NCBI GenBank assembly: GCA_020831485.1
Contig: JAFIGG010000001.1
Coordinates: 62,001-126,000 of the forward strand
Length of the DNA stretch: 64,000 bases
Direction: 5' to 3'
From: Opitutales bacterium
GTDB lineage: Bacteria > Verrucomicrobiota > Verrucomicrobiia > Opitutales > Oceanipulchritudinaceae
Shown: piece by piece, positions 4,440-55,425 of the stretch
Position numbering within the stretch: the first letter of the stretch is position 1
How the letters are laid out: every line of letters begins with the position of its first letter
Notes under the pieces: model-generated
What the model was told of the DNA's origin: nothing
Databases searched by the model: none
Seen by the model: the letters and a program-made list of their open reading frames with translations, nothing else
Translations under genes and position numbers: made by a program

Positions 4440-4444
4440 GCCGC

Positions 4445-5227: not shown

Positions 5228-5294
5228 ATCCGCAACATCTTGTGGCCTCTGTGACGCCTTTCAATGGAATTCTTCAGGGATGACCCATCGCGGG

Positions 5295-7343: not shown

Positions 7344-7358
7344 TTTTGTAGAGGCTTG

Positions 7359-9305: not shown

Positions 9306-9318
9306 GTCTCTTGCTTTC

Positions 9319-9435
9319 TCAATATTTCTTGATTGTAATCCGGTATTCGCCTTCCAACAGGGGACTCTCGTCGACCAGCCTAATGCAGTAAAGGCGGTCA
9401 CCCAAGTTGAGTCGAATGGCATCATCCTCCGGCCC
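9319..9435 (-). pseudogene. C-terminal remnant of a third subfamily-A heparinase-like gene
   Basis: One minus-strand frame from 9435 to a TGA at 9319-9321 encodes 38 residues including 'GPEDDAIRLNLGDRLYCIRL' and 'EGEYRIT'. This aligns with the extreme C-terminus of the lyase at 5295-7343 ('GPEDPGVVDRWGDRMYRIRL', 'EGRYSL'). An in-frame TAG lies directly upstream (9436-9438), and there is no room for the rest of a gene before the amidohydrolase that ends at 9528. It is therefore the scar of a deleted or rearranged paralogue, not an expressed gene. See also the N-terminal scrap at 27703-27954. Confidence 0.75.
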
Positions 9436-35474: not shown

Positions 35475-36931
35475 TGTGAATAATGTTTACCGTTCAATAC
35501 GTAGGGTCGCCTGTAGATGGATCGAACCGCGATGCTGGCATAGTCCGGGGCTTCAATATGAAATACGCCATCGACAAGCCGAAGACGAACCGGTGGATTC
35601 AGATGTCTGGCCGGATACGGAGGATCGCAGAACTTTGGGAGACAGGGATAGCCATACCGGTCCTTCTTGGCTGCGGCGATGCCAAAGCCATAGGAAGCAG
35701 GCGGCAACCAGGCCCATTCATCGTCCGATTCAACCCAGGCATCGTTGTATCCCAACAGCACTGCCAGATCGGGACCATTTTCATGAGATTCTTTCAATAC
35801 CTGTTCTACGTCAGGTGCAACGTGCATCAAATACGCAAAGTCGTGAACCTGCCAGGTTGTTCCACACAGTATGTCGTATTCATCATGCCAGCCCGTGGCG
35901 GGCGTCAGAAAGCCGTAAGGATGTTGATGCGCTGCGTACGTTTGATTCATTTCAGTTAGAAAAACATCGATGAACTCGAATCCGGACTGCGTGCGCATTT
36001 CATGAAACGATAAGGCAAGTAAGCCCATACCCGCGACCAGCATCGGCTCGCGGCTCGCCTGCCATTGGCCGTCTACCCTATCATAGCACCGGTGCACCCT
36101 GCGCAGGCCTTCACTGTCCAGCCACGAACTCCGAACGACGTGGTTGGCCAGAGATCGACAGGCCTCCAGATATTCCTTTTTGCCAGTCTTACGATACGCC
36201 TGCCAGAACGGAGGAATAATGACCCCGTAGTATTCGGCTGGCTCAATGTAGTCCGGTTGTCCGGCCTCCCTCAACATCGCAGCAGAAGTGGCATCGGGAA
36301 CGCCCATGACCAGGGTATTCTGCAGGCGCTTATCCAAAAGCGCAGAGGCGATTTCCATCCACCGCTCATCATGCCCGAAAGCCTCCATCCATTCAAAGAT
36401 TGCCCATGCAGCTGCGCAATCCTGATTGGCCGTCACCACAAAAGCATGGCCTTTGGATTCAATCGAATCCAAGGTCACATTGTAGCTTTCAAGGTTCCTG
36501 AGAACCGCCTGGCAAATACGATCCTTGAACGCCGAATCCAGCTTATCGGGGATGGTCGAAACCAGGCGGCAAAGCGACAAATTCTGCAGCATGTTACAGA
36601 TTGTTGACCGGTTAAAAGCGCGGCCAAATTCAGCTCCACAGAAATCCCATTTGCTGTCTTCCTGTTGATGAGTGAGTGCGTACTCGCACAGTTTGACGGC
36701 ATACTCGAGATAGGATTTGGAGTCACTTCGCCGAACCAATTCAGCCAAACCGATCAAATAAGGTGCGCCCCAAGCAGCATAACCACTGTAATGGTCTTCG
36801 AGAATTCCAGGATGAAGGCGCCAGACAGGATGTGTGTGGAAACCATTGAAGGAGCCATCTTCCTGACCCCAGGACCTCAGATACCGGAGCATCCGCCCAG
36901 TTACTAGATTGAGTTTTACAGCCTTATTCAT
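35471..36931 (-). CDS. Secretion-signal-free (alpha/alpha) barrel protein, glycosidase-like, function unknown
   Basis: 486 residues from the ATG at 36931; a GTG six codons earlier (36949) is also in frame. There is no signal peptide. Repeated helical hairpins with aromatic and acidic turns ('WGAPYLIGLAELVRRSD', 'VVTANQDCAAAWAIFEWMEAFG', 'GWHDEYDILCGTTWQVHDFAYL') suggest an (alpha/alpha) six-hairpin fold like unsaturated glucuronyl hydrolases and related cytoplasmic enzymes. I could not assign a catalytic pair or a named family. Acting on the unsaturated oligosaccharides made by the lyases would fit (inference). It is coupled to the downstream lyase by a 4-nt overlap. Confidence 0.6.
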   Translation of the reverse strand: MNKAVKLNLVTGRMLRYLRSWGQEDGSFNGFHTHPVWRLHPGILEDHYSGYAAWGAPYLIGLAELVRRSDSKSYLEYAVKLCEYALTHQQEDSKWDFCGAEFGRAFNRSTICNMLQNLSLCRLVSTIPDKLDSAFKDRICQAVLRNLESYNVTLDSIESKGHAFVVTANQDCAAAWAIFEWMEAFGHDERWMEIASALLDKRLQNTLVMGVPDATSAAMLREAGQPDYIEPAEYYGVIIPPFWQAYRKTGKKEYLEACRSLANHVVRSSWLDSEGLRRVHRCYDRVDGQWQASREPMLVAGMGLLALSFHEMRTQSGFEFIDVFLTEMNQTYAAHQHPYGFLTPATGWHDEYDILCGTTWQVHDFAYLMHVAPDVEQVLKESHENGPDLAVLLGYNDAWVESDDEWAWLPPASYGFGIAAAKKDRYGYPCLPKFCDPPYPARHLNPPVRLRLVDGVFHIEAPDYASIAVRSIYRRPYVLNGKHYSH

Positions 36932-36956
36932 AATTTTAGGTCTATCCACAGCCTTT

Positions 36957-39265: not shown

Positions 39266-40723
39266 TCAATTGGCCCTCAGAAAGCGCTGTGTATAATAGT
39301 TTTTAATTCGGAAGTTTCTCCAATAAGACTTCTGTGGCTCGTCATAACCCGCACGCACAAATCGCTCTTCTCCCGCCTCGATTTCATTCAAGGTCGTTCT
39401 GGCCCCTGCCCATCCAGGATGCAAACTGATCGCACTCACTCCATTAAATCGATTGGACAAGCTAAACTCATGGCTGCCGTGGTTTATTACCGGTTTCTCA
39501 TCTACCCATACGCGGGCAAGTTTGAGCGCATTGGACCACCAGATTCTCACATGATAAACCTGAAAATCCTCGATCTCAATATCCTCCACTACCGCCCATG
39601 AAGGGGCCTTCTCAAAATCCCTTCGATAATATTCGGCATCAGTTACCTCATTGTGCACAGGTACGAAATCCCGCTCGTTGCTGGACATGGAAACTTTAAA
39701 GTCATTCTCCAGAATTGTGACATTGATCTCCATTGAATTCAGGTCTGCGCGCTCGGGTTGATAACTGCCCAACTGAATCATTGCTTCCACATCAACATTG
39801 CTCGCCATCATCTCAAACTCAATTTCACCTTCGTCGATAGGATCAATTACCGCTGTTACCCAGCCATACCAGGTCGTTACTTCCAACCATTGATTATCCA
39901 CGGGGCGAAGGGTGGACTCGGCTAAGTTGTCACGGGGATATCCTATCTCTGGAGCGGGAACCCGATACCAATAAACCGGGAACACTTCATTATAGATTAT
40001 AAGATTTTCTCTTTTCTGTTGAAAACGGCGCAGAAACAAAATGGTTCCGGGGTATTCGGAATCGGAGAATAATTCCACTTTATTAATATCCTGATGCTCG
40101 TTCAACATGCCCGATTCTATAATTTCCGACCTGCGAAGCAGTCCGCCAATACCACCGTGTCGACCGGACTCATCAACGCGAAACGAAGGCTGGGTAACAG
40201 ACAGCGTGAAGTCCCCCGTCTCAAAATCAAAGTCATGAAATTCAATTGTAATGGGATCCGTTTCCCGGGCATACCATCGATCGGAATGAACGCGGTTCCT
40301 CGGGTCGACAATTGGGTGCCCCCCAGACGTAAGGTAAAGCCCGGTCTGAATCACTCCGGATTCAGTCAAAACCTCCAGCCAGCCCTCCCGATCAATCCTG
40401 CATTCCACCACGACCTGATCAGACGAATTATACAGGCGGATGCCATATTCCCGTTTGATAACAAACCTCAGGTCCAATGCAATAGAATCGTCAACGGAGT
40501 TAATTTTCTCTTCAAGGAATCGGTAACATTGGATGCCGGTCCCTGTGCCATCCATGATCATACTCCCGTTCTTTCCGAATTCAAAATGAGTGCCCTCGTT
40601 CGCATCATGCCATTTAAAATCCAACTTCATCTCGGTACCCGCTTTCGATGCTCCCAGCAAATACACTGGCAAACCAATGATGCAAAGAGCAAACATTGTG
40701 AACGGTGTTCTTTGTAATCTCAT
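39266..40723 (-). CDS. Secreted two-domain beta-sandwich protein, unknown function
   Basis: 485 residues with a signal peptide (MRLQRTPFTMFALCIIGLPVYLLGA). Two beta-rich halves are visible. The second (about 265-440) has features of a concanavalin/LamG-like sandwich: 'NQWLEVTTWYGWVTAVID', 'FQVYHVRIWWSNALKLARVWVDEKPV' and 'NGVSAISLHPGW'. There are no catalytic motifs I can name. A carbohydrate-binding or beta-sandwich lyase/hydrolase role in the periplasm is plausible from its place 13 bp downstream of a subfamily-B lyase. The 64-bp gap after it is the largest spacing in the long minus-strand run. Confidence 0.6.
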   Translation of the reverse strand: MRLQRTPFTMFALCIIGLPVYLLGASKAGTEMKLDFKWHDANEGTHFEFGKNGSMIMDGTGTGIQCYRFLEEKINSVDDSIALDLRFVIKREYGIRLYNSSDQVVVECRIDREGWLEVLTESGVIQTGLYLTSGGHPIVDPRNRVHSDRWYARETDPITIEFHDFDFETGDFTLSVTQPSFRVDESGRHGGIGGLLRRSEIIESGMLNEHQDINKVELFSDSEYPGTILFLRRFQQKRENLIIYNEVFPVYWYRVPAPEIGYPRDNLAESTLRPVDNQWLEVTTWYGWVTAVIDPIDEGEIEFEMMASNVDVEAMIQLGSYQPERADLNSMEINVTILENDFKVSMSSNERDFVPVHNEVTDAEYYRRDFEKAPSWAVVEDIEIEDFQVYHVRIWWSNALKLARVWVDEKPVINHGSHEFSLSNRFNGVSAISLHPGWAGARTTLNEIEAGEERFVRAGYDEPQKSYWRNFRIKNYYTQRFLRAN

Positions 40724-40736
40724 AATATATCCTTTT

Positions 40737-43700
40737 TTAGTTCGCTGACTTAAAGGCTGTCAGTTTATCAACTTTCAATGTCATTCCCTCAGCCGACACC
40801 CCGTCGGCGAATGTTCCGCCATAGAAAATAGCGGAAAGAATCTCATCTCCTTTCATGGTCAGAGCCAATGCTTCGGCGTCGGAATGGATCCCCATGTGTT
40901 GCCATGATGCGGAAGCATTTCCCTTTCGGATCGCAAAGAATCCAACCTCTTCGCCCTGTTCCCATTGTAGCCCGGTCAGTTGTTCCGTTTCAAAACGGCT
41001 GAAACCGGTGCATGAAGCATCGCCTTTCGGATGCGCAAGGAAGCCGAAAAGCTGTTGAGTCCGGCCCTTCGAAAACTGCCTGCTGAAGGTATGCGGATAC
41101 GCAGTGATTTCAGAATGCCTCGTGCGCATCCTTCGGGTGCTTTTTTCGAAATCCGATAAATTGTCTACAAACACATGGAGAGTATTCCTTGGCGTTTCCA
41201 CCCGGTATCCGCTTGCGACTGCGTCTCCGAGTGCGGAAAAATTAAAATTCCAGCTCATTTCGGCTTTGTCCAAAGTCAGTTCCACATGGTCCCAGACAAT
41301 AATCGCGCCAGGTCTAACGTAGACCAAATGCCGATTAAAATGCTCCAGATCACGATAGACCGCCTGCGCATCCGATATCACCCAATCAATCCCCCCGGGT
41401 TCTCCGGGAAGGATTTCTCCTGAAGTCGATTTAAAATCCGTAAAACCAACGTCGAAGTACTCCTCGCCATAACGTTGATCCTCCCTATCGACAATGAGTG
41501 TGTTGTGTAAATTTGTCTTTTTGTACAATACGGCTGTTGGCTCGCTGTAATCAACAACTTCCGGGTCTAAAACCAGGGATTCCCCATTGAACTCAAATAT
41601 AAAGGAATTGCGGTCTTTATGTGAGTGAGTCCCCGAAAAAGATGGGTTGGTCAGTGCGACCACCGAGTCCCCGTATTCCAATCCTGTCCTGAAAAAAGCA
41701 TGAGCGCGGATCGGAAAAACTCGTGTAGGCGCGATTTTAATCTCTTTCGCTGGTACAGGATCACCGAATAAGGTAATATTGCGAAGTGGAACAACAGAGC
41801 CGGGTTTTCCCTCTTGGAAATAGGAATCAAGCAAGTACTGGGCAGTTTCATTTTTAAGGTGCCTTGCGTAGAATAGAAGAACCTCAGGTCTTATCCAGCC
41901 TAATGAACTTAAATCACCAAACGAGAGAAATTTCGGCTCCTTGAATATCGTTGAAGTCGAATAGACCATGAAGTCGAGCGGTGCCTCGATGTTCTGTGGG
42001 ACAATCTCTTTGAATGGGACATCCAGGATTCTAGAAACAGGGGGCAGCATGTCCATATACAATTGCAGTCCACTCTGTCCGTAACCTGGTCCTTCCGTAA
42101 AGACGCCGTCATTACTCCAAATGACTTTGCTGCTTGAGAGCATCAGATCAATGGTCACATCCATCGCTTCGGCATACACTGGATCATCTTCCTGAAAGAA
42201 TGCGAGTTGCATCACAAGAGGCAATCCATACCAAATTCCCTGATGGTTGGATCGGTAGAATTCGACATTGCTCATCAGTTTATGATAGAGCATGTAAAAC
42301 CCATGTGCCTTCATGGCATCAGTGATCTCTTTGCCTTCCTCTTCGGTGAACAGCTCGTGTAACACATCGTAACCGAGGCCCATCGCAAAACCAATCCGAC
42401 TGATCGCAAAGCCAACATTCATGTAACCGGCAAAACCCTTTGGATACCACCCTGAATAACTTGTGGAATACCCATTCATGTCTCCGGGCATATCCCGTCC
42501 CGTCACCATATAGTGTTCACCCCGCCATTCGCCGCTTCGAGCTGTCCGAAGCATCCACCTTCGGCAGGCTTCTGCGTATTCACGATTTCCCGTCAAAATA
42601 TATGCCAACATCACAGGCGGTAGCGCTTTTTCCAGCCCTGCACCCTTCATTCCTTTCGGATGACCGATTCCACTTGACCAAATTTTGCCGTAATAATTCC
42701 TATCTACAAACTCATTCGAAACCTGAAGGTCTGCCTCATCAATAATGGCTTCAAGATAAGGAAGATAACGTTCGTCTCGTTTCTGGTATACCTGACGAAG
42801 CCACTTGATGTCATCTTTGTCAAAGTAGAAGCCGAATTTCGGTGTGAGTGTCTCAACCGGAAGTAGTTCCGTCATGGGTTCAACATCAACGGTGTAGGGA
42901 AACTGTTGAACGGTTCTGTAGGCAATGGGCGTGGCTTCCGGTGCTGGATTATAATCCCCAATCAACCGGACAGCAACAGTCTCCCAAGGTGCATCGTCGT
43001 AGACGGATGGTTCCCGTAGAACAATGGAAAAGAGGCCAACACCGACCTTCGACCGATCTTTTATGGCTTCGGTTGTTGCCCGCAGTTCGATGCGAATGGA
43101 TTTTATAAAGTCTACCCCCTCCAAATCGGCTGCAAAGGTCAACCACCCAAACCCATCCCTGAAAGCTGGATTCAAACTGTTTCGAAGCATGTAGATGCGG
43201 TTCCCATTCCCGGAGAGAATCGAGACAGACAGGGTCGACCCTGGTGACCATGTCATTTTCGACAGTAATTTACTGAACTTTTCGGCTGGCATATTCAGGT
43301 TCCGCTCGAGTGTCAGAACCCTTGCCTTTTCCGATGCCTCGAAACTGAATTGAGCCCAAGGTGTTGTCATGGCAACGACCTCATCGGATGCAACTGCTGC
43401 AACCTCCTTATCCAGCACTTGCCATTCCGCAAGGTTCACTGCATGGAATCGCCACCCTGTCTCTATAACCGTATCGGAAGCATTGACACGGTAGCGCGGA
43501 AAGTCTGAAGACAGTTCGGGTTCTCCCACCTTTACCGGCTCTTCCCAGAATGCAAAGCTGTCCTCAGACAGTCGCAAACGCAGGTATCTAATGGCCCTGA
43601 TATTGAGGCGTTCTGCGACCGAATGAACTTCCTCCATGTTCAGCTGCTCCCGCTGATTTCCGCGCCTCGGCAGGAAATTCCTTAGCCAGAGATGCATCCG

Positions 43701-44012
43701 GTTCTCGCCTTCCCAGTCGTCCACAAATGGTATTTTTCCCAATGTTTCTCTTTCTGCGTTAAGCAACTCGATCACATACGATGCTCCGGTCCGCTTCTCG
43801 GAATCCAGCGTTAGGATCAATGATCGCGCATCCGGATCGAAGTTCTCATGAAATCCGAACATTGCCTCTCCGCGGTAAGGATCCCAATAGGGTTCTCCAT
43901 GCTTATCGATGGCACCCGCTCCACTCCACCCGGATCCAAATGCAGTCGTACCGCAGAAGAAAATCAGAATAGCAAGGATCGCTTCCGCGCTTATTTGATT
44001 TGTCGAATTCAT
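40737..44012 (-). CDS. Large heparinase II/III-like lyase (subfamily B, divergent)
   Basis: 1091 residues from the ATG at 44012, chosen because it yields a signal peptide (MNSTNQISAEAILAILIFFCGTTAFG) and starts 1 nt after the stop of the upstream lyase; an in-frame start at 44063 would overlap that gene by 50 nt. Beta-rich N-terminal modules precede an (alpha/alpha) toroid ('WYPKGFAGYMNVGFAIS', 'NHQGIWYGLPLVMQL') and a beta-sheet domain with 'SGTHSHKDRNSFIFEF' near residue 790. It is the most diverged of the three subfamily-B proteins: 'LVLDPEVVDY' replaces the 'DPGNH' seen in the others. Confidence 0.82.
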   Translation of the reverse strand: MNSTNQISAEAILAILIFFCGTTAFGSGWSGAGAIDKHGEPYWDPYRGEAMFGFHENFDPDARSLILTLDSEKRTGASYVIELLNAERETLGKIPFVDDWEGENRMHLWLRNFLPRRGNQREQLNMEEVHSVAERLNIRAIRYLRLRLSEDSFAFWEEPVKVGEPELSSDFPRYRVNASDTVIETGWRFHAVNLAEWQVLDKEVAAVASDEVVAMTTPWAQFSFEASEKARVLTLERNLNMPAEKFSKLLSKMTWSPGSTLSVSILSGNGNRIYMLRNSLNPAFRDGFGWLTFAADLEGVDFIKSIRIELRATTEAIKDRSKVGVGLFSIVLREPSVYDDAPWETVAVRLIGDYNPAPEATPIAYRTVQQFPYTVDVEPMTELLPVETLTPKFGFYFDKDDIKWLRQVYQKRDERYLPYLEAIIDEADLQVSNEFVDRNYYGKIWSSGIGHPKGMKGAGLEKALPPVMLAYILTGNREYAEACRRWMLRTARSGEWRGEHYMVTGRDMPGDMNGYSTSYSGWYPKGFAGYMNVGFAISRIGFAMGLGYDVLHELFTEEEGKEITDAMKAHGFYMLYHKLMSNVEFYRSNHQGIWYGLPLVMQLAFFQEDDPVYAEAMDVTIDLMLSSSKVIWSNDGVFTEGPGYGQSGLQLYMDMLPPVSRILDVPFKEIVPQNIEAPLDFMVYSTSTIFKEPKFLSFGDLSSLGWIRPEVLLFYARHLKNETAQYLLDSYFQEGKPGSVVPLRNITLFGDPVPAKEIKIAPTRVFPIRAHAFFRTGLEYGDSVVALTNPSFSGTHSHKDRNSFIFEFNGESLVLDPEVVDYSEPTAVLYKKTNLHNTLIVDREDQRYGEEYFDVGFTDFKSTSGEILPGEPGGIDWVISDAQAVYRDLEHFNRHLVYVRPGAIIVWDHVELTLDKAEMSWNFNFSALGDAVASGYRVETPRNTLHVFVDNLSDFEKSTRRMRTRHSEITAYPHTFSRQFSKGRTQQLFGFLAHPKGDASCTGFSRFETEQLTGLQWEQGEEVGFFAIRKGNASASWQHMGIHSDAEALALTMKGDEILSAIFYGGTFADGVSAEGMTLKVDKLTAFKSAN

Positions 44013-44013
44013 C

Positions 44014-47000
44014 TTAATTATTGTTATTATAACTTTTTTGAAACCATTCAAAAGCAGCTTCATTATTCACAGCGTGCCCTCCTTCATGGAAGATTCCTTC
44101 AAGTTTGTTTTCGGCCCCGAGGATGCGATAGGCCCGCTCGATTTCTCTGAACATAACATCGTATTCCTCCCGCGGCATTACTCCATTGTTCCAGGACAGC
44201 ATCAGGTAAGTTGGATCGGAGCCCGGTCCGAGCGAAGCGTCTTTCAGGCCTTGTTGATACTGCACCCGCTTCGGTGCCAACAATGCGGCCCAATCGGCTT
44301 GATCCATGTAAGGTTCCAGCTGTTTTTGCAGGCCCGCATCAGAGTGGGGTGGGAAGCGGAACCTTTTGTCGTAGTGATTCCAAGTGCTCAAAATACATCC
44401 AACCACACCAGTTGTTACCCTTTCATCGAACGCGAGGAGGTTCATGACGATCCAGCCGCCAGCCGACAAGCCGACAGTGCCTACACGTCCTGAATCAATC
44501 TCAGGCTGCTCCAGCGCATAATCAATCGCGCGCATTGCGTCCCAGGTCCATTCGCCAATGAGAGTCCAATCTTCGTTCTGGAGTGTGTAATCCATTGTTG
44601 CGGGCTGCAAAACCGCATAGCCCCGCTTCGCAAAATAGGCACAAAAGTCATTGATGTGCCCCTCCTCGAAGGCTTCTATAACGGCTGCACCCCAGCGGGT
44701 TTCGTGTCCGTGCAGCCCCACCATTAAGGGCAACTTACCCTCATACTCCCGAGGACGCGACAACAGCAGATCTATACGGCGGTTCTCCTGAGTGGTTATG
44801 CGAATGCGTTCAACATAAAAGTCCTCATAATGATACGTGCGGATTTTTTCCGGCTCCAGGTCCAGGATTTCCTGTTGCTCCACTGGACCGTCCAGAAAGA
44901 CATCTGCCAGCGTGTTCCGGGATTCCTCGCGCCATTTCAGGAATTCATCCTGGGTTGACGGAAAGGCCGATTTTCTTTCCCGCAATTTCTTTTCATACTT
45001 CTGGATGCCCAACGGATCTTCGGCCATGGGTGAACGCACAGGGTGTTCGATATCTATGGCCACCTCAATCAGACCGGGTTTGCCATCCAAGGGTTCAATC
45101 TCCAGCCAATAGTGACTGTAAGCGAGACGCCCATCCCAACCTGGAGTCAGAGCGACCTCTGCCCCATCCAATCCGAATGCCTTCAATGGGCTCATCGTGT
45201 AGACTGGGAGGCGAACGGGGGAACCATCCTGACTCCAGACCCATATCCGATTGAGGCCGTGGCCGACAACCCTGGCATTGTCCACTGGACCCACTTCAAG
45301 GTCTGTTACCGGGTAGAAGACATCGCGGTCCAGACGATCCTGCCCAAACTGATATCCGGCAGTGCCCTGGCTAAACAGCGTGGTTCCGCCTCCATGCTGG
45401 CGAAGCACCGGCTTGGAATCATAGAACAATTGCTTCCCCTGGTTCATACCGGCTGAAAGAAGGTTCCCTTCCCCATCTGTTTTCCAGGCAAAAACCCCGG
45501 CGTCGCTGGAAACCTTGTCAAATTCGACGCGCGAAGCATCCGGATTCAATACCAGATGATACTCCTCGCCTTCCAGCCGAATGCGCAGTCCATAAGCATC
45601 TCCGGTTTCGATCTGTTCAATCTCCGGAGGTGTCGCATCCAGGGATTGAGGAATCATTACCGTTAAAACTCTCGCCGATGACTCCGGCTGCACCGTGCTC
45701 AGCTGAACGCGCTGGGTCTCGTGAGACTCATCCCAGGACAAAATCCAACGGGCAAAACGCGGCTCCAAGTCGATGTTCGAAACAGCAAACAGAGTCAGTC
45801 GGTTGGAATCTGTCTCTGCCACCAAACGTCCATCCTCATGCTCCTCAACGGAGGTCAGCGCATGGAAATTCAATTCAAACGATTCAGGTTCGTGGCAATC
45901 CAAAGCATCCACCACCGCAAACACTCCTGGCCGCATCCAGATAAACTGCCGCTCGTATCGCTCGGCTTCCGCATAGACGGCTCCTACATCCATAACGCCC
46001 CAGTCGATGCCATGGGGTTCGCCTGGTGTCTTGCGTCCGGAAGTGCTCGCAACCGAAACAAGGGAAAGATCGTAGGGGTCGTCTCCGGACAGTTGGTCTG
46101 CCTGTCCAAATGTCAGCGTGCTGTGAACTGCAGTTTCGACCTGTCGGCCGCTCCGGGGATGATAATAAGAGTGATTCCCCGGGTCGGTCATCAACAATTC
46201 ACCATTGTAGGACAGGATGAACGATCCCCGATCCTTGTGAAAATGCCCGTCATAGTAGCGCATATTGGTCGCCGCAAACACGGTAGAACGAAAATCAATT
46301 CCATCACGATAGAAGAGCAACGGCTGATTCTCGAAGTAATGAACTGGTGGCAGTTCGACTTTTTTTGCTTCTGGCCAGTCGCGGTAATTAATGAATAGCA
46401 GGGGATCTCTGCCCGCATCCGCCGGATTATCATCAAGGGCACGTTTCAAATATTCAAGCGCCTCACCTCTTTGATATTCACGGTGAAAGAAACCGAGTAC
46501 CGTCGGATGAAGCCGATTCTGACGACTTGCATCGCTCCACGGGATAGCACCTATGTGGCTGCCTTCCGCAACGGGCAGACGGGTGTGCAGAAGGTAATCA
46601 AAAGAACGTCCCAAATCTGGTCCGGCGATATCCCGAACAGGTGTTTCGGTCAGTCTTGAATAGACACCAAGTGCCCGAACAAAATAGAACAAGGTCCCGT
46701 TCAAATAGCCTGGACCTTCCGTTCCCACGCCATCAATGAGCCAGGTTCCAGTGGCAAAATCTTTAAAAAAGTCGCCCACCCAGTCGTACATCTTCGCGTA
46801 GTCTTCATCCTTATCTCTCAAGGCCTGCAACTGCATGAGCAACGGTCCTGAAAAGATAGCGCCCTGATTCATTCCCAGGTAAAATTCAGGGTTATTGTGA
46901 AGTTTATCAAATGGCACGAAAAGGCCTGTTCTCGCCAGCGCATCTTCCACCTTGCGACGTTCTTCATCCGTCAAGAGATGGTAGATCCAGTCATAGGCCA

Positions 47001-48681
47001 GCATAATTGAGAACGCAGCTTGGGATTGGTAAAGTGGTGCATCCATGTATCCACTCCAACCTTTCGGATAGCGGCTCGTAAAGCTGTCGACGTAATAACC
47101 CCGACCTCCTACAAAAGGTCGATAGGGTACACCATGAGCCCCGCGAAGATCCGGACTTTCGGCAAAGCGCAAAAGCCAGGTTTTGGCAGCTGCAGCATAC
47201 TCCCTGTCTCCCGTAACCAAATACGTGAGCGCGGCCTGCGCAATATACGCGTCCACGCCTGCCCCGTAAGCGCCAATCGGAAGCCCGACGCCACCAACAG
47301 TCATCCAGGTGTCATGCAGCTCGTCAGGATCAAGGCGGTCGATGATACCGTCGCGCGAGTGCATGTGATGACGCCCTTCCCGATAAACATAGTCCCGCTC
47401 AACCGCCCCCTTTGCAGTCTGATGAACCGCCTCGAAGAGCCGCCTGCCCATATCGCTATCGACCTTACTTCGCAGTTCATACAGATCACTCCGATCGAAA
47501 AGAAAGCCAAATGGGATTTCTGGTTCGGCCTCGGGAAGTGCCGAAGCGAGCACCCTATCCCTCACAACAAAGGGTAACTGAGGAACGGCAATTCTGCGGG
47601 AAACAACTCCGGTATCCATGCGATCGCCCCGGCCTGGCTCGAAGACAACCTCCCGCTCGACCACTTCGACTTCGTCCCACTCCGATGGTTTTCGGAGCAA
47701 AACGTGAAACAGTCCGACACCGGGGCTGCGTTCATCCCGGTCAACCGTTTGCTTTTCCCTGAATTCCAGTTCAATCGCCCGTAAATGTGTGGCGTCGTCC
47801 AAATCACCCCCTATAGTCAAAAAACTGCCGGCGGATTCGGTAGACTCAGTGACATCAATTGTTCGGCCATCGTCGACAATTGCCCTCAAGGTGACCGCCG
47901 TCTCCCAGTCCCAGGTCAACTTTGCCAGCATTCGGTCAAAGTCTCCGAGGGGAATGTCCACCTCCCTTCGCAAAGTGAGCACCTTGGGCTCGCCTTGCGA
48001 GTCCCACTCGAAGCCGACCCAAGGTTCGGTGTGGACACGCAAGGTATCGACATCAACCGTTGTTGCTTCGGGAACCACTTGCCAGTCCCCAATCTGCGCA
48101 AAGGTAGAACGCCAGCCGAGTTCAAGGATCGCGTCGGATTCATTCACCTCCCACAAAGCTGAGCCCCGTCTCATCCGCACATGCTGGACCGATAAATCTG
48201 TTTCACGGAAGCCTGCGGAAACCTCAACCAGCTCGACATCCTTCAAATACAAATGTCCAAATCGTTCGATTTCTTGATGGACCTGCTTGATCGGAATCTT
48301 CTTGCGGCCGGAAAAATCAAGATCCATCCGCTCACCAGCCAGCGCAATGGATGACAAAGGCAGCCGAATCTGATTCAAACCCTCCCAATCGACCGCGAAC
48401 ACAAGGGCTGCTGCCTGCTGTCCATTGACATCATTGATTCGGATTTCAACCCTTGCACCACTGGCTCTTTCCGAAAAAATACTCAGTTCAAGGTAGCTGT
48501 TAAAATCGCTGAACCGCTCCGCATTATCAATGTTTGAGCGCAAAACGAACTTTCCAGTTAATTGATTTTCAATTGAATCGCCTATCCCCTCCGAGCAGCC
48601 GCTGATCGCGAGCATATTCAACAAGCAGCCAATCATAAGCGTTAGTTTTGAATAATCTTTTTTCGTTATCATAATCTCCAT
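44014..48681 (-). CDS. Fusion of a heparinase II/III-like lyase with a C-terminal alpha/beta-hydrolase (esterase-like)
   Basis: 1555 residues in one uninterrupted frame. The N-terminal signal (lipobox-like 'AISGC') suggests a lipoprotein. Residues to about 1100 match subfamily B: 'GGVGLPIGAYGAGVDAYIAQ', 'FYLGMNQGAIFSGPLLMQL', and 'GHFHKDRGSFILSYN' near 810. From about 1230 an acetylxylan-esterase/dienelactone-hydrolase-like domain follows: 'MVGLHGHETRWG' near 1320, nucleophile elbow 'GLSAGG' (Ser1406) and the C-terminal His in 'EGGHAV' (His1536). One enzyme could both remove ester groups and cleave the chain (inference). It ends with four Asn residues, and the next lyase gene starts 1 nt after its stop. 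Confidence 0.87.
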   Translation of the reverse strand: MEIMITKKDYSKLTLMIGCLLNMLAISGCSEGIGDSIENQLTGKFVLRSNIDNAERFSDFNSYLELSIFSERASGARVEIRINDVNGQQAAALVFAVDWEGLNQIRLPLSSIALAGERMDLDFSGRKKIPIKQVHQEIERFGHLYLKDVELVEVSAGFRETDLSVQHVRMRRGSALWEVNESDAILELGWRSTFAQIGDWQVVPEATTVDVDTLRVHTEPWVGFEWDSQGEPKVLTLRREVDIPLGDFDRMLAKLTWDWETAVTLRAIVDDGRTIDVTESTESAGSFLTIGGDLDDATHLRAIELEFREKQTVDRDERSPGVGLFHVLLRKPSEWDEVEVVEREVVFEPGRGDRMDTGVVSRRIAVPQLPFVVRDRVLASALPEAEPEIPFGFLFDRSDLYELRSKVDSDMGRRLFEAVHQTAKGAVERDYVYREGRHHMHSRDGIIDRLDPDELHDTWMTVGGVGLPIGAYGAGVDAYIAQAALTYLVTGDREYAAAAKTWLLRFAESPDLRGAHGVPYRPFVGGRGYYVDSFTSRYPKGWSGYMDAPLYQSQAAFSIMLAYDWIYHLLTDEERRKVEDALARTGLFVPFDKLHNNPEFYLGMNQGAIFSGPLLMQLQALRDKDEDYAKMYDWVGDFFKDFATGTWLIDGVGTEGPGYLNGTLFYFVRALGVYSRLTETPVRDIAGPDLGRSFDYLLHTRLPVAEGSHIGAIPWSDASRQNRLHPTVLGFFHREYQRGEALEYLKRALDDNPADAGRDPLLFINYRDWPEAKKVELPPVHYFENQPLLFYRDGIDFRSTVFAATNMRYYDGHFHKDRGSFILSYNGELLMTDPGNHSYYHPRSGRQVETAVHSTLTFGQADQLSGDDPYDLSLVSVASTSGRKTPGEPHGIDWGVMDVGAVYAEAERYERQFIWMRPGVFAVVDALDCHEPESFELNFHALTSVEEHEDGRLVAETDSNRLTLFAVSNIDLEPRFARWILSWDESHETQRVQLSTVQPESSARVLTVMIPQSLDATPPEIEQIETGDAYGLRIRLEGEEYHLVLNPDASRVEFDKVSSDAGVFAWKTDGEGNLLSAGMNQGKQLFYDSKPVLRQHGGGTTLFSQGTAGYQFGQDRLDRDVFYPVTDLEVGPVDNARVVGHGLNRIWVWSQDGSPVRLPVYTMSPLKAFGLDGAEVALTPGWDGRLAYSHYWLEIEPLDGKPGLIEVAIDIEHPVRSPMAEDPLGIQKYEKKLRERKSAFPSTQDEFLKWREESRNTLADVFLDGPVEQQEILDLEPEKIRTYHYEDFYVERIRITTQENRRIDLLLSRPREYEGKLPLMVGLHGHETRWGAAVIEAFEEGHINDFCAYFAKRGYAVLQPATMDYTLQNEDWTLIGEWTWDAMRAIDYALEQPEIDSGRVGTVGLSAGGWIVMNLLAFDERVTTGVVGCILSTWNHYDKRFRFPPHSDAGLQKQLEPYMDQADWAALLAPKRVQYQQGLKDASLGPGSDPTYLMLSWNNGVMPREEYDVMFREIERAYRILGAENKLEGIFHEGGHAVNNEAAFEWFQKSYNNNN

Positions 48682-48705: not shown

Positions 48706-51387
48706 CTACTCCCTTGATTGAATATCTAAATACAAAAACTCAGGATCGATTCCCGCCTCAACCCGTCTGTCGCCAAGACTCAGATAGCTGGCATTGAAAG
48801 CGTACGCAGATTCGGGTCTTCCCTCCCGATGAATTACCAGAGCGAGGTTGCCGTCCGTCTGCAGACCAAACTTTCCGGCTGAATCTTTTCCGTTTAATAG
48901 GATAAACACTCTGCGACCATCATTGCCTTTCAGCTCAACGATGCCTTGATCGACCTGCCTGATTTCGGGCATACGCTCTTTGTCACCCTGTCCTGTTATA
49001 AGCGTTTGGATGCGGTGCTCGAGGCTCTCGGGTGTTTGCACGTCCAGTTCATAAACTGGCGCTAGCGAACTTATCAGTTGCCGATACTCATTCCGGATCC
49101 GGTCAATGTGATCCCGATCGCTACGACGGTATTCCGTTTCATAGGATTCCCCGGCAGACAAAACCGAGACTTTAATTGCCGCGCTCTCCCCTGTGCTCTT
49201 AAAACTGCCTTCCGCTAACTTCTGAAAAGGGTATCGACTGTTCCAGTGCTGTATGCCACCTGCCTGCTGAGACAATTGGAACTGATCGTCTATAAGAATG
49301 ATATTTGGCCGAATGTAGACCATTCTGCGGATACCCTTTTGCACGCCCTCAAGCCAGGCCGAGGCAAAATCCATCTCAATAAAGTCTATTCCGTTTACAG
49401 ACCGGGCCAACAGTGTCTCCGCCCCCCTGCCCTCCTTCAGCAAAGCGTCCTGGTTTCGCCCGGATGGCGTAAACAAATTGTAGTCGCGGCTCTGGATCTG
49501 TTGAGAATCCCCATAACCGGTCGGCTCTTTAGTCAGAAAGAAATTTTCTTCTCCCCAGGAAAGTTCAAATTGACCTTTAGTAGGATAGGTGTGCCCCCCC
49601 TGGCGCCAGAACCCGCTTTCAACCTTGAGATTGAAGCCACGATCTGGCAGGTCCGATCGGCTGATGATCCAGCCGCCATCAGGGAAAAATTGAAACAGTT
49701 CATCATCCGGAACACCCTCTTTCTGCCTGTAAGCGTCTGCGTATGCTTTCCCATCCATCCAAATCCAATGCAAGCCGAAGAACCAGGTCTCTGGAAGGTT
49801 TATGGTTTCCGCATGATCAAAAAGAGGCGTCGGATAATAGTAGGCGCTGAAAGAGTCCTCCTTCATCGGACCCGCCAAAAATGCGGCCCACATCGGCAGC
49901 ATCTCGCCTGTATACGCCACATTGAAATGTGCGCTGCGGATCAAACGTTCCGGCACCAAGTCGCGAATATCAACTCCGGTCGCTCGCGCCGCTGCATAAT
50001 AGGTCAATAGAGTGCTGATTGCCGTACCGGCCCCATAGGAAACACCTTCAATAAAGGTACCATCTTCGTTCATTTGGGGCAAGAACCCCTTGTTCAATGA
50101 ATCAATCTCTGCAAGAACCTGCGTGTGCGATAGTGGTGCTCCCAATCCGCCTTTTGATAGCGCAAGTTTCCCCAGCAAGAGTCCCTTATGGAACCGGGTT
50201 CCCTGATTGGCATACTGGAAACGAAACCGCTCCAAGGGCTCCAGCCCTTTGACCCGTATGGCTTCCGCCACAAACTGCCTTCCATCCGGCGTCAGCCAGT
50301 CCCAACACCAATCCAGCAACAGTGCACTGAACAGTGTTACAAAGTTATACGAAAAACCACTGTGGTGCCAGTCAACAAAACTGTTATTCACAGTGAAACC
50401 CTCTTCCCAATCAGGAATCGCTGCGAGCCGAATCAATTTGTGTGCAGCACGCTCCATCAACTCTGGATCTTTTTTGAGCTGCCCCAGCAATCCTTCCAGC
50501 AATCCGTTGTCTGCCCGATTGGATTTAAACGCCTCATTGGCGAGCCTTCCATACCGGCTGTTGCTGTAGGTAAAGTACGCCGGTGGTTGTGGGTCGAAGT
50601 CAAGGCCCAGCCATTCACCAAACCGCGTTAAATCCTTTTGCAGGAGATCCGCGTATGGTTCGGCAGCAACCATTTTTCTCAACGCTTTAATGTCTTCTCC
50701 TGAAAGAATCAGTCCCAACCCGGGAAGGTAATCCGGGTTGTCCGGTCTTTGGATATAGCGCTCATAGTCAGGGTGGTCCACGACAAGACCCACATCGGGT
50801 CTACGCAGCATCAGCCACCTCAGGGTCAACACATAATCGCCCGGCTCATCGACGGTTACGTCAATCCATGCCTGGTTCAACTGCTTGCCTTTGATCGGCA
50901 TGGCATGCTCGATGTGAGGTCTGCTTTCTCTCGGAGTCCGATCCAAAACAACTTCGGAACTTTGATACACCTCACCTTCCTCAAAGCTCAACCCATAGCT
51001 CAAACGAGTGCCTTCGGGCTGCATAACTCGCAAAACGGCCTCCGAAAAGTCACCCACAAAAAGTTCATAAGGTCTTTGCATCCTTACCTTCCCCGCTTCA
51101 GTAGCCGTCCACTGCAATTCGACCCGATCCCAAAACCGTTCGAACCGCGCCTGCTCGACACCTTCGCTCTCAACGATTTCCCAGCGATTTTGCGCCAATG
51201 CATTGGGTGCCCAGAAAGCTTCAATGATGCCTTCCCCGGGCGATACCATTTGCGGAAATGCCGGCCACAATGGATCCGACAATTCTCTCTCATGGTACGG
51301 CTTTCCGCCATACAGGTCTGCTGCGACGATAAAGACCGCACACACTAAAAAGCCGGAGAGTTTGAATCGTTTTGCTGAGCTTTTCAT
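48706..51387 (-). CDS. Heparinase II/III-like lyase (subfamily C, outlying member)
   Basis: 893 residues, secreted (signal MKSSAKRFKLSGFLVCAVFIVAADLYG). The mature start 'ELSDPLWPAFPQMVSPGEGI' and 'RFWDRVELQW' parallel the tandem trio at 52816-60709. The toroid carries 'NNSFVDWHHSGFSYN' and 'YANQGTRFHKG'; the beta domain has 'GGHTYPTKGQFELSWG' and 'QHWNSRYPFQKLAE'. It is more distant from the other three copies than they are from one another, so it probably arose from an older duplication. It begins 7 bp after the gene at 51395 and ends 24 bp before the fusion gene. Confidence 0.83.
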   Translation of the reverse strand: MKSSAKRFKLSGFLVCAVFIVAADLYGGKPYHERELSDPLWPAFPQMVSPGEGIIEAFWAPNALAQNRWEIVESEGVEQARFERFWDRVELQWTATEAGKVRMQRPYELFVGDFSEAVLRVMQPEGTRLSYGLSFEEGEVYQSSEVVLDRTPRESRPHIEHAMPIKGKQLNQAWIDVTVDEPGDYVLTLRWLMLRRPDVGLVVDHPDYERYIQRPDNPDYLPGLGLILSGEDIKALRKMVAAEPYADLLQKDLTRFGEWLGLDFDPQPPAYFTYSNSRYGRLANEAFKSNRADNGLLEGLLGQLKKDPELMERAAHKLIRLAAIPDWEEGFTVNNSFVDWHHSGFSYNFVTLFSALLLDWCWDWLTPDGRQFVAEAIRVKGLEPLERFRFQYANQGTRFHKGLLLGKLALSKGGLGAPLSHTQVLAEIDSLNKGFLPQMNEDGTFIEGVSYGAGTAISTLLTYYAAARATGVDIRDLVPERLIRSAHFNVAYTGEMLPMWAAFLAGPMKEDSFSAYYYPTPLFDHAETINLPETWFFGLHWIWMDGKAYADAYRQKEGVPDDELFQFFPDGGWIISRSDLPDRGFNLKVESGFWRQGGHTYPTKGQFELSWGEENFFLTKEPTGYGDSQQIQSRDYNLFTPSGRNQDALLKEGRGAETLLARSVNGIDFIEMDFASAWLEGVQKGIRRMVYIRPNIILIDDQFQLSQQAGGIQHWNSRYPFQKLAEGSFKSTGESAAIKVSVLSAGESYETEYRRSDRDHIDRIRNEYRQLISSLAPVYELDVQTPESLEHRIQTLITGQGDKERMPEIRQVDQGIVELKGNDGRRVFILLNGKDSAGKFGLQTDGNLALVIHREGRPESAYAFNASYLSLGDRRVEAGIDPEFLYLDIQSRE

Positions 51388-51394
51388 AGGACAA

Positions 51395-52819
51395 TTATGG
51401 GGTTTGATAGATCCTCAAGCTGCGAATGGTCATCCGTGTTCGCTTCATGAATCTCAATGCCACATAGCCGCAGTGGAGAAAGCCTCCCGAATACTGAAAC
51501 GGCTCATCTTCAACATCGAAGACCTGGACACCATTTAAGATCCCACGAAGTCTCGGACCTTCCTGAACATACTGAAACCGATGCCAGACACCCAGTTCCA
51601 GAAGCCTGTCAAGGCATTGAAAAGCAAGTGGGCGTTGCAACGGATCTTTTACCAGCCCAACATTAGCGACATCGTTGCGGGTGTCTGCCATCTCTCTATA
51701 GAATTCCAGATGGTAGTTGCGCACGTTCTCCCGATGTACCGTGCGCATCGACCCCGAAGAACGCGGAGGATGGTCGGAGAACAGATCTTCACGCTGCATG
51801 CCACTGGACTGGAGCATCAAGAGCGCCAATCCTCCGCGACTATGAATCTTAAAGTCGAGACTGAGGGCAAGGTCCCCTTCAAACCATTTTTTAAGCCAGT
51901 AATACACCTGGCTCTGTTCGTTTTCATCCTCGTCCACCATCTCTTCGGGCGTTTCGATCTCCAATCCCTCATCGGACCATTGGTGTGCATTGGGATTTCC
52001 CTGAATGTAGAAATCGGAAAGCCCAGCCTCCTCTGGGAAATCAGTTTCATAGGCAAGCTGCCAAGAGCCCGGATCGAATTCGCAGGTTTTCAAGCCCTTT
52101 CCTCCATAAGTTTTCTCGAGCACGGCAATCGAAGCCTGCTCCTCCTCACGCGAAGAAGCCATGAAGCAGTCTTTAAGAGCGGTCTGCGTTAATACCTTAT
52201 CGTAAAACTCAAGGTCACCGATCAGAAAACAGGGGTGTCCTACAAAAAGGCTGCGACCGCCAGGGTGCTCCTCAAGGGGGCCCGAAAACTGGTCACTACT
52301 ACCTATACACACACCATTCACATACATTTTATAACTACTCTCATCCCGATTCCAGGAGACGGCCAACTGCTGCCAGGTCTCGCGATGAAAGTAATAGTGA
52401 TTGGCAGTTACCAGTGCGCGGGGCGGATCGTATGCATCCATGTAAATGTTCCCCCGATAAAATTTAGCCCAGAAAACCGGATACCAGCCTCCACTCCAAA
52501 CTATAGAGAAGGCACTTTTCTGCCACTTGCGGTCACGCAAGCGGTCGGTTACGATCACATAATCCCGGTAATCCGGATGATGTTCCGCGATATGTTGCCA
52601 ATGAGGAAAGCTGGAAAGATCTTCCCGGCACGCAATCCATATTGTCATTGTCCCCTGCCGCTCATTTAGGGTATGGTTCCGCAGCATGCATTGTTCATGC
52701 AAGGTGCGAAAACCGACACCCGCGCGGTTGCCAAGGGTTACTTCTTCTGCTGTAGAATTCGAAGAGAGCAATTGCTCTACGTTGTATTCGATAGTGGGGC
52801 CAATTATCGTTTTTTTCAT
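51395..52819 (-). CDS. Two-domain LamG-like / DUF1961-like protein
   Basis: 474 residues with no signal peptide. The first half (about 1-215) is a LamG-type beta-sandwich: 'RQGTMTIWIACREDLSSFP', 'RETWQQLAVSWNRDESSYKMYVNGVCIG' and 'FLIGDLEFYDKVLT'. The second half (about 245-474) resembles DUF1961 proteins: 'GLALLMLQSSGMQREDLFSD', 'NYHLEFYREMADTRNDVANV' and 'LRGILNGVQVFDVED'. DUF1961 genes tend to occur with polysaccharide catabolic genes; the activity is not known to me. It overlaps the first subfamily-C tandem lyase by 4 nt. The lack of a signal next to secreted lyases is unexpected. Confidence 0.65.
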   Translation of the reverse strand: MKKTIIGPTIEYNVEQLLSSNSTAEEVTLGNRAGVGFRTLHEQCMLRNHTLNERQGTMTIWIACREDLSSFPHWQHIAEHHPDYRDYVIVTDRLRDRKWQKSAFSIVWSGGWYPVFWAKFYRGNIYMDAYDPPRALVTANHYYFHRETWQQLAVSWNRDESSYKMYVNGVCIGSSDQFSGPLEEHPGGRSLFVGHPCFLIGDLEFYDKVLTQTALKDCFMASSREEEQASIAVLEKTYGGKGLKTCEFDPGSWQLAYETDFPEEAGLSDFYIQGNPNAHQWSDEGLEIETPEEMVDEDENEQSQVYYWLKKWFEGDLALSLDFKIHSRGGLALLMLQSSGMQREDLFSDHPPRSSGSMRTVHRENVRNYHLEFYREMADTRNDVANVGLVKDPLQRPLAFQCLDRLLELGVWHRFQYVQEGPRLRGILNGVQVFDVEDEPFQYSGGFLHCGYVALRFMKRTRMTIRSLRIYQTP

Positions 52820-55425
52820 CGTTTTTCTTTTATTAAAGTGAGAGTAGATCTTTCTTCCGAGAGAATTTCCTGTGGACCATAACGCAACAATGTCGCTCCA
52901 AAGGCGCCTGCCTCGACAACCTCATCGTCATGGTGAACGACAAAGCTCAGCTCCCCATCCGATTGAACACCAAGCAAGGCCGAACGGTCCATCGAATTAC
53001 CATAGGCGATTCGGACCCTGACGTCGTCCTTCCCGGTTACTTCAATGACACCATTTGCAACATGCGTCACTTTGGGACGTTCATCACCGGCCCAAGCAGT
53101 GACTAATGTTAAAACTCGATGATTCTCCTGTGATGGGCTTTCGAAACGGATGCTGTTGACCGGAAGCGCAACATCGCCGTCGTCACTTACTGCCCCCGAT
53201 CGATGCACCGAGTTCGGCGCAATGACCGGGTTGACCAATTCATGGTTAAGAACTTCAAGCATCGCTTCACCACTCGCAAACCTAATGCCAAAGCGACCGT
53301 CACCATGATCTTCAATCGCCTCAAGACTGTTCCATATCTGGAATCCCTCACCGGGTTCCGTGAAGCGGTAGTCGTCCTCAACCAACAACACTCCTGGCGG
53401 GATATAAAGCAATCGCCGAATCCCTTTATCCACGCCTTCGAGCCAGGCTGTGTGGTTGTCAATTTCAATGGCATCCACGTATTCGAGTGATTCAACCGCC
53501 TTAACTTCTGCACCACGCTCGTTTTCGTTCAATCCATCCTGGGTCTTTCCAACTGGTTTGAAGGTATTGAAAGCGCGTGTGCGCCAGCTCGCACGAAAAC
53601 GGGAGTCATTATAGGATGTGCTTGCTCGCCTGATCAGGAAGGGTTCGCCTCTAAAGCCGACTTCAATATCGCCCTTGCGCGGCCGCGTGTGGCCACCTTG
53701 AATCCAATAGCCGGCATCCAGCGTGAAGGAAAGCTCCGGACCCTTGCTGATAATCCAGCCGCCAACAGGATAGTGACGTAAAACCGGTCTTTGCCGAGTT
53801 TCAGCGCCCTCCCCACTATCAACCCTGTCCATCCACAGCCAATCCGTTCCGAAACTTGCCCATTCCGGTGGATTCGAATAGCCCCCGGCACCCCCTTCCA
53901 GAGGTGCTCCTGGTTTATAAAATCGCTGCAGTTCAGTTTCACCTAAGAGCCCGCCTACAAACGCAGAAACGGGATGCGGAAGCTCATCGGTCAAGCCCGC
54001 ATAGAAGTGTGCAGATTCAATAATTCGTCGGGGAACTATTGCCTTCAAATCCGTTCCTGTTTCTCTAGCAATCAATTGATAGATTGGAATCACTATTTGC
54101 AAGGTTCCCATCCCATAGCCGTCGGCCTCGACAAAAGTTCCATCCTCATTGATCAGATTCAAAAAATGGCTTTCAAATGAGCGCAATTCAGCAAGCATTT
54201 GATGGTTATCAAACGGCGTCCCCAGCCTGGATTTAGCCAAGGCTAAGCGCGCTAGAATAATTCCCTTGTGGAAACGGGCTCCCTGATTCGCATGATTGTA
54301 GCGATGTTGATCGATTTTCGCCAGGCCCTTGTCCCTCATGGCCTGGGCAACAAATACACGCCCTTCAGGCGTCAGCCATTCCCAGACCCAGTCCAGGAGC
54401 AACGCACTTTGAATCAGGGTGACATTGAAGCTGAATCCACTGTGTGCCCATTCAACAAAGCTATTGCTTGTCATGAACCCTTCCTCCCACTCATCGGTGG
54501 CCGCCAGCCGGATCAATATCCGAGCCGCCTCTTCCATCAGTTCAGGATCCTTTTTCAGCATGCCGTAATAACCTTGCAGCAGCCCACCGTTCCTCCACTC
54601 TCGCCTACTATCATAAACACGCCCGTAGCGCATCCAGGCGTACAAGCTGAAGCGGGGCGCCACCGGATCAAGCGCCTCTTCAAGCCAAGGCTTTAGTTGA
54701 TCCAATTCGGCGTCGATCAGATCCTTGAATGGGGCGCCCTTAGACAGTTCCCGCAAACGATCCACTTCGTCTTCGGTCAGCAGCACACCCAACCCAGGAC
54801 TAAAATCAGGATCAACAGGTTGCCGTATAAAGCGTTCATAGTCCGGGGTAGATCCCACCCAGTCGACTCCGGACCGCCGAAGCATCAACCAGCGCAGCTC
54901 AACCGTCTGCGTGCGGTCTGCAGTATCCGCACGGAAATGAATCTCAACACCCGCCAGGCGCTCGCCCTCAATCGGTATTGCCACCTCCATGTGCCTGTAT
55001 TCACCGCGGGTCCATTCACTCTTAAAGCTTTGCCCTGAATCGTTTTCGGCGATCAGCTTAAACTCCATGTCCGGCGACAGGTTCACCCGGAATACCAGCT
55101 CTTCAAAGTCGCCGATGTACAGGTCATAGGGACGGTGAATACGCGCCTGCGCATCTGCCTTGGTCTCCTCTTCCAGCTCCCAGCGGAATTCAACACGGTC
55201 CCAGAAACGTTCGATCAACCCGTCTCCGTCAGTATGCCATCGCGTTTCCGCAACGCCATTAGGAGCCCAAAAAGCTTCAATGATGCCTTCCGTGCTCGAG
55301 ACCATTTTGGCCTTCTCCGGCCACAAAGGATCGTCCAGGGTTCGACCCGGGTGCTGCGGTTCGGCTGCCAAAAAAGAAGGCAGCAACACAAGCATAAAAA
55401 GCATCATCAAATAAATTGGATTCAT
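52816..55425 (-). CDS. Heparinase II/III-like lyase, tandem copy 1 (subfamily C)
   Basis: 869 residues, secreted (signal MNPIYLMMLFMLVLLPSFLAA, mature start 'EPQHPGRTLDDPLWPEKAK'). Beta-rich N-terminal modules are followed by a toroid ('NSFVEWAHSGFSFN', 'HANQGARFHKGIILARLAL') and a heparinase beta domain ('GGHTRPRKGDIEVGFRGEPF', 'QIWNSLEAIEDHG'). The start overlaps the upstream copy by 4 nt and has a good Shine-Dalgarno AGAGGAAG at 55430-55437. It is the most diverged of the three adjacent copies, but shares a 126-bp identical tract with copy 2 at its 5' end. Confidence 0.85.
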   Translation of the reverse strand: MNPIYLMMLFMLVLLPSFLAAEPQHPGRTLDDPLWPEKAKMVSSTEGIIEAFWAPNGVAETRWHTDGDGLIERFWDRVEFRWELEEETKADAQARIHRPYDLYIGDFEELVFRVNLSPDMEFKLIAENDSGQSFKSEWTRGEYRHMEVAIPIEGERLAGVEIHFRADTADRTQTVELRWLMLRRSGVDWVGSTPDYERFIRQPVDPDFSPGLGVLLTEDEVDRLRELSKGAPFKDLIDAELDQLKPWLEEALDPVAPRFSLYAWMRYGRVYDSRREWRNGGLLQGYYGMLKKDPELMEEAARILIRLAATDEWEEGFMTSNSFVEWAHSGFSFNVTLIQSALLLDWVWEWLTPEGRVFVAQAMRDKGLAKIDQHRYNHANQGARFHKGIILARLALAKSRLGTPFDNHQMLAELRSFESHFLNLINEDGTFVEADGYGMGTLQIVIPIYQLIARETGTDLKAIVPRRIIESAHFYAGLTDELPHPVSAFVGGLLGETELQRFYKPGAPLEGGAGGYSNPPEWASFGTDWLWMDRVDSGEGAETRQRPVLRHYPVGGWIISKGPELSFTLDAGYWIQGGHTRPRKGDIEVGFRGEPFLIRRASTSYNDSRFRASWRTRAFNTFKPVGKTQDGLNENERGAEVKAVESLEYVDAIEIDNHTAWLEGVDKGIRRLLYIPPGVLLVEDDYRFTEPGEGFQIWNSLEAIEDHGDGRFGIRFASGEAMLEVLNHELVNPVIAPNSVHRSGAVSDDGDVALPVNSIRFESPSQENHRVLTLVTAWAGDERPKVTHVANGVIEVTGKDDVRVRIAYGNSMDRSALLGVQSDGELSFVVHHDDEVVEAGAFGATLLRYGPQEILSEERSTLTLIKEKR
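55271..55396. repeat. 126-bp tract identical to 57880-58005
   Basis: Reading both stretches base by base I find no mismatch over 126 bp covering the signal-peptide and mature N-terminus codons of tandem copies 1 and 2. The flanking sequence differs at both ends. The offset is 2609 bp. Perfect identity including third positions points to recent exchange or strong local sequence homogenisation between the copies. Confidence 0.8.

Follow-up and report, generated by a model that had tools for sequence, protein, structure and literature searches.

An Opitutales gene joining a heparinase-type lyase and a CE19-like esterase in one probable lipoprotein

The window analyzed herein is a stretch of 64,000 nucleotides from the genome of an Opitutales bacterium (contig JAFIGG010000001.1, positions 62,001 to 126,000). 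A single frame runs on the minus strand from 48681 to 44014. It starts with ATG and encodes 1555 amino acids with no internal stop, the length given by an earlier reading of the same DNA made from its letters (the sequence-only reading). When the bacterium's own genome was searched, the 1555-residue protein was the sole full-length match. The translation begins with a signal peptide carrying the lipobox ISGC with Cys29 (residues 1-29, 48595-48681). By the lipobox rule, the fused protein is a probable lipoprotein. GC3 was alike on both sides of the fusion (0.55 and 0.58), and both values match those of the neighboring genes.

The first two thirds of the protein appear to form a PL35/PL15-like lyase, for which lyase activity is inferred. 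An N-terminal beta-rich region (residues about 62-370, 47572-48498) is common to the fused protein and two sister lyases by alignment, and its strands come from a low-confidence model. A helical, toroid-type lyase region follows (residues about 371-760, 46402-47571), defined by PL35 and PL15 profile matches and by helices in the same low-confidence model. The heparinase II/III C-terminal domain occupies residues 807-966 (45784-46263). It matches Pfam PF07940 at 44.6 bits (E 1.6e-11), above the curated cut-off of 24, which places the fused protein in the heparinase II/III-like lyase family. The lyase motif expected near residue 810 was located at residues 812-821. The lyase end and a linker cover residues 1044-1123 (45313-45552), and the alignment with the closest sister stops at 1041.

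A lyase profile was built from the three window lyases and one relative. It matched the PL35 chains 9o3q (a chondroitinase; E 3e-17), 8khw (E 7e-17), and 8khv (E 3e-14), as well as an alginate lyase of PL15, 3a0o (E 3e-13). Structure prediction had been proposed for the whole protein and was carried out by halves. It succeeded for the esterase (476 residues, 6 sequences, pLDDT 72, pTM 0.73). The model of the lyase half (residues 30-1130, pLDDT 45, pTM 0.35) was too poor for a fold search, and the fold of this half therefore rests on sequence.

The passages on GAGase II in PMC12088678 give Asn192, Tyr246, and His401 as the catalytic residues and His403, Asp405, Asp421, and His457 as the Mn-site residues. 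All of the residues given there have counterparts in the fused protein. By alignment, Asn605 (46867-46869) corresponds to the neutralizer Asn192 and Tyr659 (46705-46707) to Tyr246, both in the helical region. In the heparinase II/III C-terminal domain, His813 aligns with the base His401, and His815, Asp817, Asp833, and His853 align with the Mn-site residues. The residue spacings are 54 in both proteins, 155 in GAGase II and 154 in the fused protein, then 2, 2, and 16 in both; the last Mn-site spacing differs, being 36 in GAGase II and 20 in the fused protein. The Asn-Tyr-His set and the Mn-site residues are common to PL35 GAGase II/VII (8khv, 8khw) and the fused protein, which differs by several hundred extra residues before the toroid and by an esterase after the lyase.

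Two sister lyases lie on the same minus strand. The closest (32241-35474) is 44% identical and aligned to residue 1041, and the other (40737-44012) is 30% identical and aligned to residue 973. The alignments bear out the earlier statement that both sisters stop after the lyase part, without an esterase. Two further window genes match PF07940, and four resemble the sister lyases weakly by BLAST. Seven lyase-like genes stand in a minus-strand cluster running from 63998 to 32241, and two more at 5295-9425. All 15 consecutive gaps in this cluster fall between -64 and +64 bases, which indicates that it is probably one long operon. No sulfatase family was found among the 38 window products scanned, and this absence fits an unsulfated uronate polymer. 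The gene at 31085-32236 passes the NCBIfam cut-off for galactonate dehydratase (485 vs 311 bits), which points faintly to a partner sugar of the galactose type. About 11 kb beyond the right end of the window, on the same strand, stands a gene of GH88, the family of unsaturated uronyl hydrolases, and dihydrodipicolinate synthase-type genes lie just right of the window, also on that strand.

The esterase module opens with a small beta domain (residues 1124-1211, 45049-45312), which has seven strands in the model. This domain was assigned to the module because the relatives of the esterase carry it too. The module thus begins earlier than about 44980, the junction implied by the sequence-only reading, and the whole mature esterase, beyond its catalytic domain, comes after the lyase. 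Confidence in the esterase model is low over its first 44 residues, and the small beta domain was hardly probed by the fold search. The alpha/beta-hydrolase domain (residues 1212-1555 with the stop, 44014-45048) was defined by the relatives, the model, and the fold comparison.

The nucleophile Ser1406 lies in GLSAGG (44464-44466) and is conserved as Ser in all 13 sequences of the alignment. His1536 (44074-44076) is present in all 12 sequences that reach the position; that of locus L030 ends earlier at a contig edge. Both residues had been named by the sequence-only reading and were found where it placed them, and the pair, whose loss in all relatives it held would speak against the fusion, is kept in every relative reaching these positions. 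Asp1481 (44239-44241), Asp in the 6 close members and Glu in 7 rows of a sister subfamily, completes the Ser-Asp-His triad of CE19. Asp1481 and His1536 were assigned by alignment position.

In the fold comparison, the esterase model matched the putative proteins 3nuz (Z 27.1, rmsd 5.7, 291 aligned) and 3g8y (Z 26.9, rmsd 2.8, 277 aligned), then BT1017 (6goc; Z 26.0, rmsd 4.3, 291 aligned), and so has the BT1017-type alpha/beta-hydrolase fold as modeled. The CE15 glucuronoyl esterase 6gu8 followed within 1 Z unit of BT1017 (Z 25.5, rmsd 3.2, 295 aligned), with other CE15 structures lower, and CE7 acetyl esterases reached a Z of about 20. By the model, the esterase half appears to resemble BT1017 (CE19) and CE15 more than CE7. 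The passages concerned in PMC10483417 and PMC7939467 describe BT1017 as a pectin methylesterase and, in 2023, as the sole functionally characterized CE19 member. BT1017 has the triad in the same order, and the fused protein has a GH motif at the position of its oxyanion His201; BT1017 carries a DUF3826 domain, where the fused protein carries a lyase. The CE15 enzymes OtCE15A and PvCE15 have the same fold (Z about 25) and carry a comparable W..G.W.W stretch ahead of the nucleophile. CE15 membership was rejected, as the oxyanion arginine placed directly after the serine in the CE15 passage of PMC10807430 is replaced by Ala1407. Membership in CE7/AXE1 (Pfam PF05448) was also rejected at 18.9 bits against a cut-off of 21, which the relatives at L027, L028, and L029 pass.

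From about residue 1124 to its end, the module is 41-45% identical to proteins of five other genomes (L026-L030). Identity at this level over the whole module in five genomes is far from chance. The source lineages include Verrucomicrobia, Bacteroidia, Phycisphaerae, and a Bacteroidales bin. The relatives at L026, L028, L029, and L030 are separate genes with their own starts and signal-like leaders, surely unfused; the frame at L027 is open at the left end of its contig, where an upstream fusion is possible. Separate genes in relatives, together with a frameshift, had been named as the finding that would undo the fusion. At least four of the five close relatives are indeed separate, but they are ordinary exported proteins with no frameshift.

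A heparinase-type lyase gene adjoins the esterase gene on the same strand in two of these five genomes. At L026, the esterase gene (5785-7170) begins 1 base after the lyase gene (3786-5783), and at L027, it ends 4 bases before the lyase gene (1365-3620). The neighbors in the other three are GH2 (L028 and L030) and a beta-helix protein (L029). The L026 lyase belongs to another clade than the window lyase: it is 39-49% identical to those at L046, L047, L048, and L053, whereas its identity with the window protein is 26% across 192 residues.

The sister subfamily of the esterase (L061-L067, n=7) is 27-34% identical to the close members. The frames at L064 and L066 end after the esterase. Those at L061, L062, L063, L065, and L067 extend in frame past it by several hundred to more than 1000 residues, with no heparinase-type Pfam match in the extensions; two of the extended frames weakly resemble GH127. 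The frames at L061, L062, and L067 (in full, L071, L073, and L072) were considered as second fusions and rejected for want of a lyase domain by Pfam.

The same domain order was sought in other genomes, as had been suggested, and among those searched the fusion turned up in no other genome. With the esterase alignment at E 1e-20 or better, matches were present in 3 of 273 genomes of the order and 6 of 387 of the phylum, the window's own genome included. At E 1e-40, the genomes around other members gave 1/298, 1/344, 1/14, 8/166, and 1/159; the sets overlap in part, and for most of them scoring covered the top few candidates in each genome. Among the matches in these seven sets, a lyase-esterase fusion was not seen a second time. 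Loci around lyase relatives of other genomes (L054, L055, L059, and L060) gave no match to the esterase part. Two further candidates were rejected, since L050 (1354 aa) joins a lyase to an NPCBM domain and L047 joins one to a PL5 domain. The latter frame, of 1169 residues in a genome of the same order (L047 28-3534, also L054 7022-10237), combines a heparinase-type lyase with a PL5-type alginate lyase domain. The alignments excluded the weaker esterase matches (L032-L037, L043, and L044), of which L032 alone was Pfam-scanned; the frames of the others (386-688 aa) look too short for both domains. Viral contigs were searched with the esterase and lyase alignments, and no relative was found in them. 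A plasmid search gave 7 distant matches, of which 3 were examined, and the three best are annotated as acetylxylan esterases. One distant esterase relative, on a Hymenobacter volaticus plasmid (L069 8872-10851), sits in a SusC/SusD locus between GH28 and pectate lyase genes.

Lyase-esterase fusions as a kind are already in print. In the CE12-CBM35-PL11 proteins, as a passage of PMC10483417 presents them, a polysaccharide lyase and an esterase likewise share one chain; the lyase and esterase families are other ones there, with a CBM in between. Open-access literature listings gave no report of a CE19-like esterase in one chain with a heparinase-type lyase. What is new here is this pairing together with a lost metal site. 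The combination of two known enzyme kinds is genuine and is unique within the searches made.

In BT1017, four residues (Cys315, Cys317, His201, and His244) bind zinc at a distance of about 9 A from the serine, and the authors leave the role of the metal open in the passage on this site (PMC7939467). These residues were placed on the fused protein by order, spacing, and profile match ranges. Tyr1365 (44587-44589) matches His244, and the alignment shows His there in all 12 other rows; all 3 of the more distant relatives have it as well. Ser1447-Asp-Ala1449 (44335-44343) matches Cys315/Cys317, where Cys-x-Cys is found in all 12 other rows (5 close, 7 sister). The pair is missing from 3 distant plasmid-borne relatives, which retain both histidines. 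His1326 is kept in the fused protein, within the GH motif common to all 12 relatives. One of the four ligand positions of the Cys2His2 site of BT1017 is therefore left in the fused copy, and the separate relatives L026-L030 differ from it in having CxC and His intact. The zinc site is not established as a defining feature of CE19, because the passage in PMC10483417 reports the two histidines as kept in another CE19 member.

The preferred reading, to which we give a probability of about 55%, is that the gene encodes a single-chain lipoprotein with two activities, a PL35/PL15-like lyase and a CE19-like esterase acting on an ester of the same polymer. In the lyase site, Asn605 would neutralize the uronate carboxylate, His813 would abstract the C5 proton, and Tyr659 would protonate the leaving sugar, while a metal bound by His815, Asp817, Asp833, and His853 would shape the site. 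The Ser1406-Asp1481-His1536 esterase would strip an ester, most likely from the uronate carboxyl (methyl-type), and the free carboxylate would thereby be offered to the adjoining lyase, an order of action that is part of the proposal. The gene may have arisen through the fusion of a lyase gene with an esterase gene like those found next to such lyases in some other bacteria.

Gene fusion is good evidence for two activities serving one substrate. The fusion itself is supported as a true one by the sequence, the catalytic residues, the single frame, GC3, and the adjoining genes. The sequence-only reading went further in holding that it implies an esterified substrate; we would say that it hints at esterification of the natural polymer. 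The fusion further links an uncharacterized CE19-like family, which adjoins heparinase-type lyases in two other lineages, to the breakdown of uronate polymers.

The ester type had been left as acetyl or methyl. The fold comparison leans toward a uronate carboxyl ester and away from acetyl, and by the model the former is the more likely. Removal of O-acetyl groups instead, such as those of an acetylated alginate-like polymer or of another uronate polymer, is less probable but deserves weight. It would be consistent with the AXE1 match, weak in the window protein and above the cut-off at L027-L029, with the annotation of the three best plasmid relatives, with the alginate-type lyases among the relatives of the lyase half, and with the PL5 alginate lyase domain to which one lyase relative, from the same order, is fused. 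However, the model agrees less closely with CE7 (Z about 20) than with BT1017 and CE15 (25-26), although a common fold does not determine which ester is cut, and BT1017 prefers methyl over the acetylated substrates tested, as the passage in PMC7939467 indicates.

A more speculative extension of the two-activity reading, which we regard as rather unlikely, is that a zinc-free CE19-like branch has been paired with a heparinase-type lyase for the first time, with de-esterification and beta-elimination following each other on one uronate. The zinc would have been lost through a pocket altered by the fusion. The esterase family, including a sister branch fused with other domains, would be a new carbohydrate esterase family.

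Three of the four zinc-matching residues differ from all 12 relatives, and the fused esterase may therefore be altered or inactive. Judged from these residues, the loss counts against unchanged activity. A non-working esterase half, retained for a structural or sugar-binding role beside a lyase that acts alone, seems to us unlikely. The changes His to Tyr1365, Cys to Ser1447, and Cys to Ala1449 occur together at positions constant in the relatives, and further conserved positions are altered (Leu1263, Glu1268, Asp1274, and Thr1402). The triad and the HGH motif are nevertheless retained, and the fold needs no metal, given that BF1801 (3nuz) and StnA are metal-free according to the passage in PMC7939467 and that three distant relatives do without the Cys pair. 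Of all the features of the fused copy, the loss of the zinc-like site lends itself best to testing; with its triad kept, this copy is a natural test of whether the zinc of BT1017 is needed.

An assembly or frame error uniting two genes is very improbable: the fusion was seen once, in a genome of 142 contigs, and most close esterase relatives are separate genes, but one frame stays open for more than 4.6 kb, both halves share their GC3 with the neighboring genes, the lyase reads on in frame into the beta domain of the esterase, with no signal peptide there, and the 15 gaps between genes of the cluster stay within -64 to +64 bases.

Other genes of the window were also recorded. Three tandem genes (52816-55425, 55422-58094, and 58031-60709) are 74-86% identical, have no Pfam match, and are weakly lyase-like. 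They keep the NQG and Tyr motifs and lack HxHxD, and one copy has Gln for the base His; they are possibly recent duplicates with changed or lost activity. The gene at 48706-51387 is 39-40% identical to this triplet and likewise lacks the full HxHxD. Two cluster proteins, at 35471-36949 (492 residues) and 39266-40723 (485 residues), have no Pfam match and no convincing match to a solved structure. In the single frame at 18959-21457, a propeller of the kelch/N-acetylneuraminate epimerase type is fused with a sodium:solute symporter.
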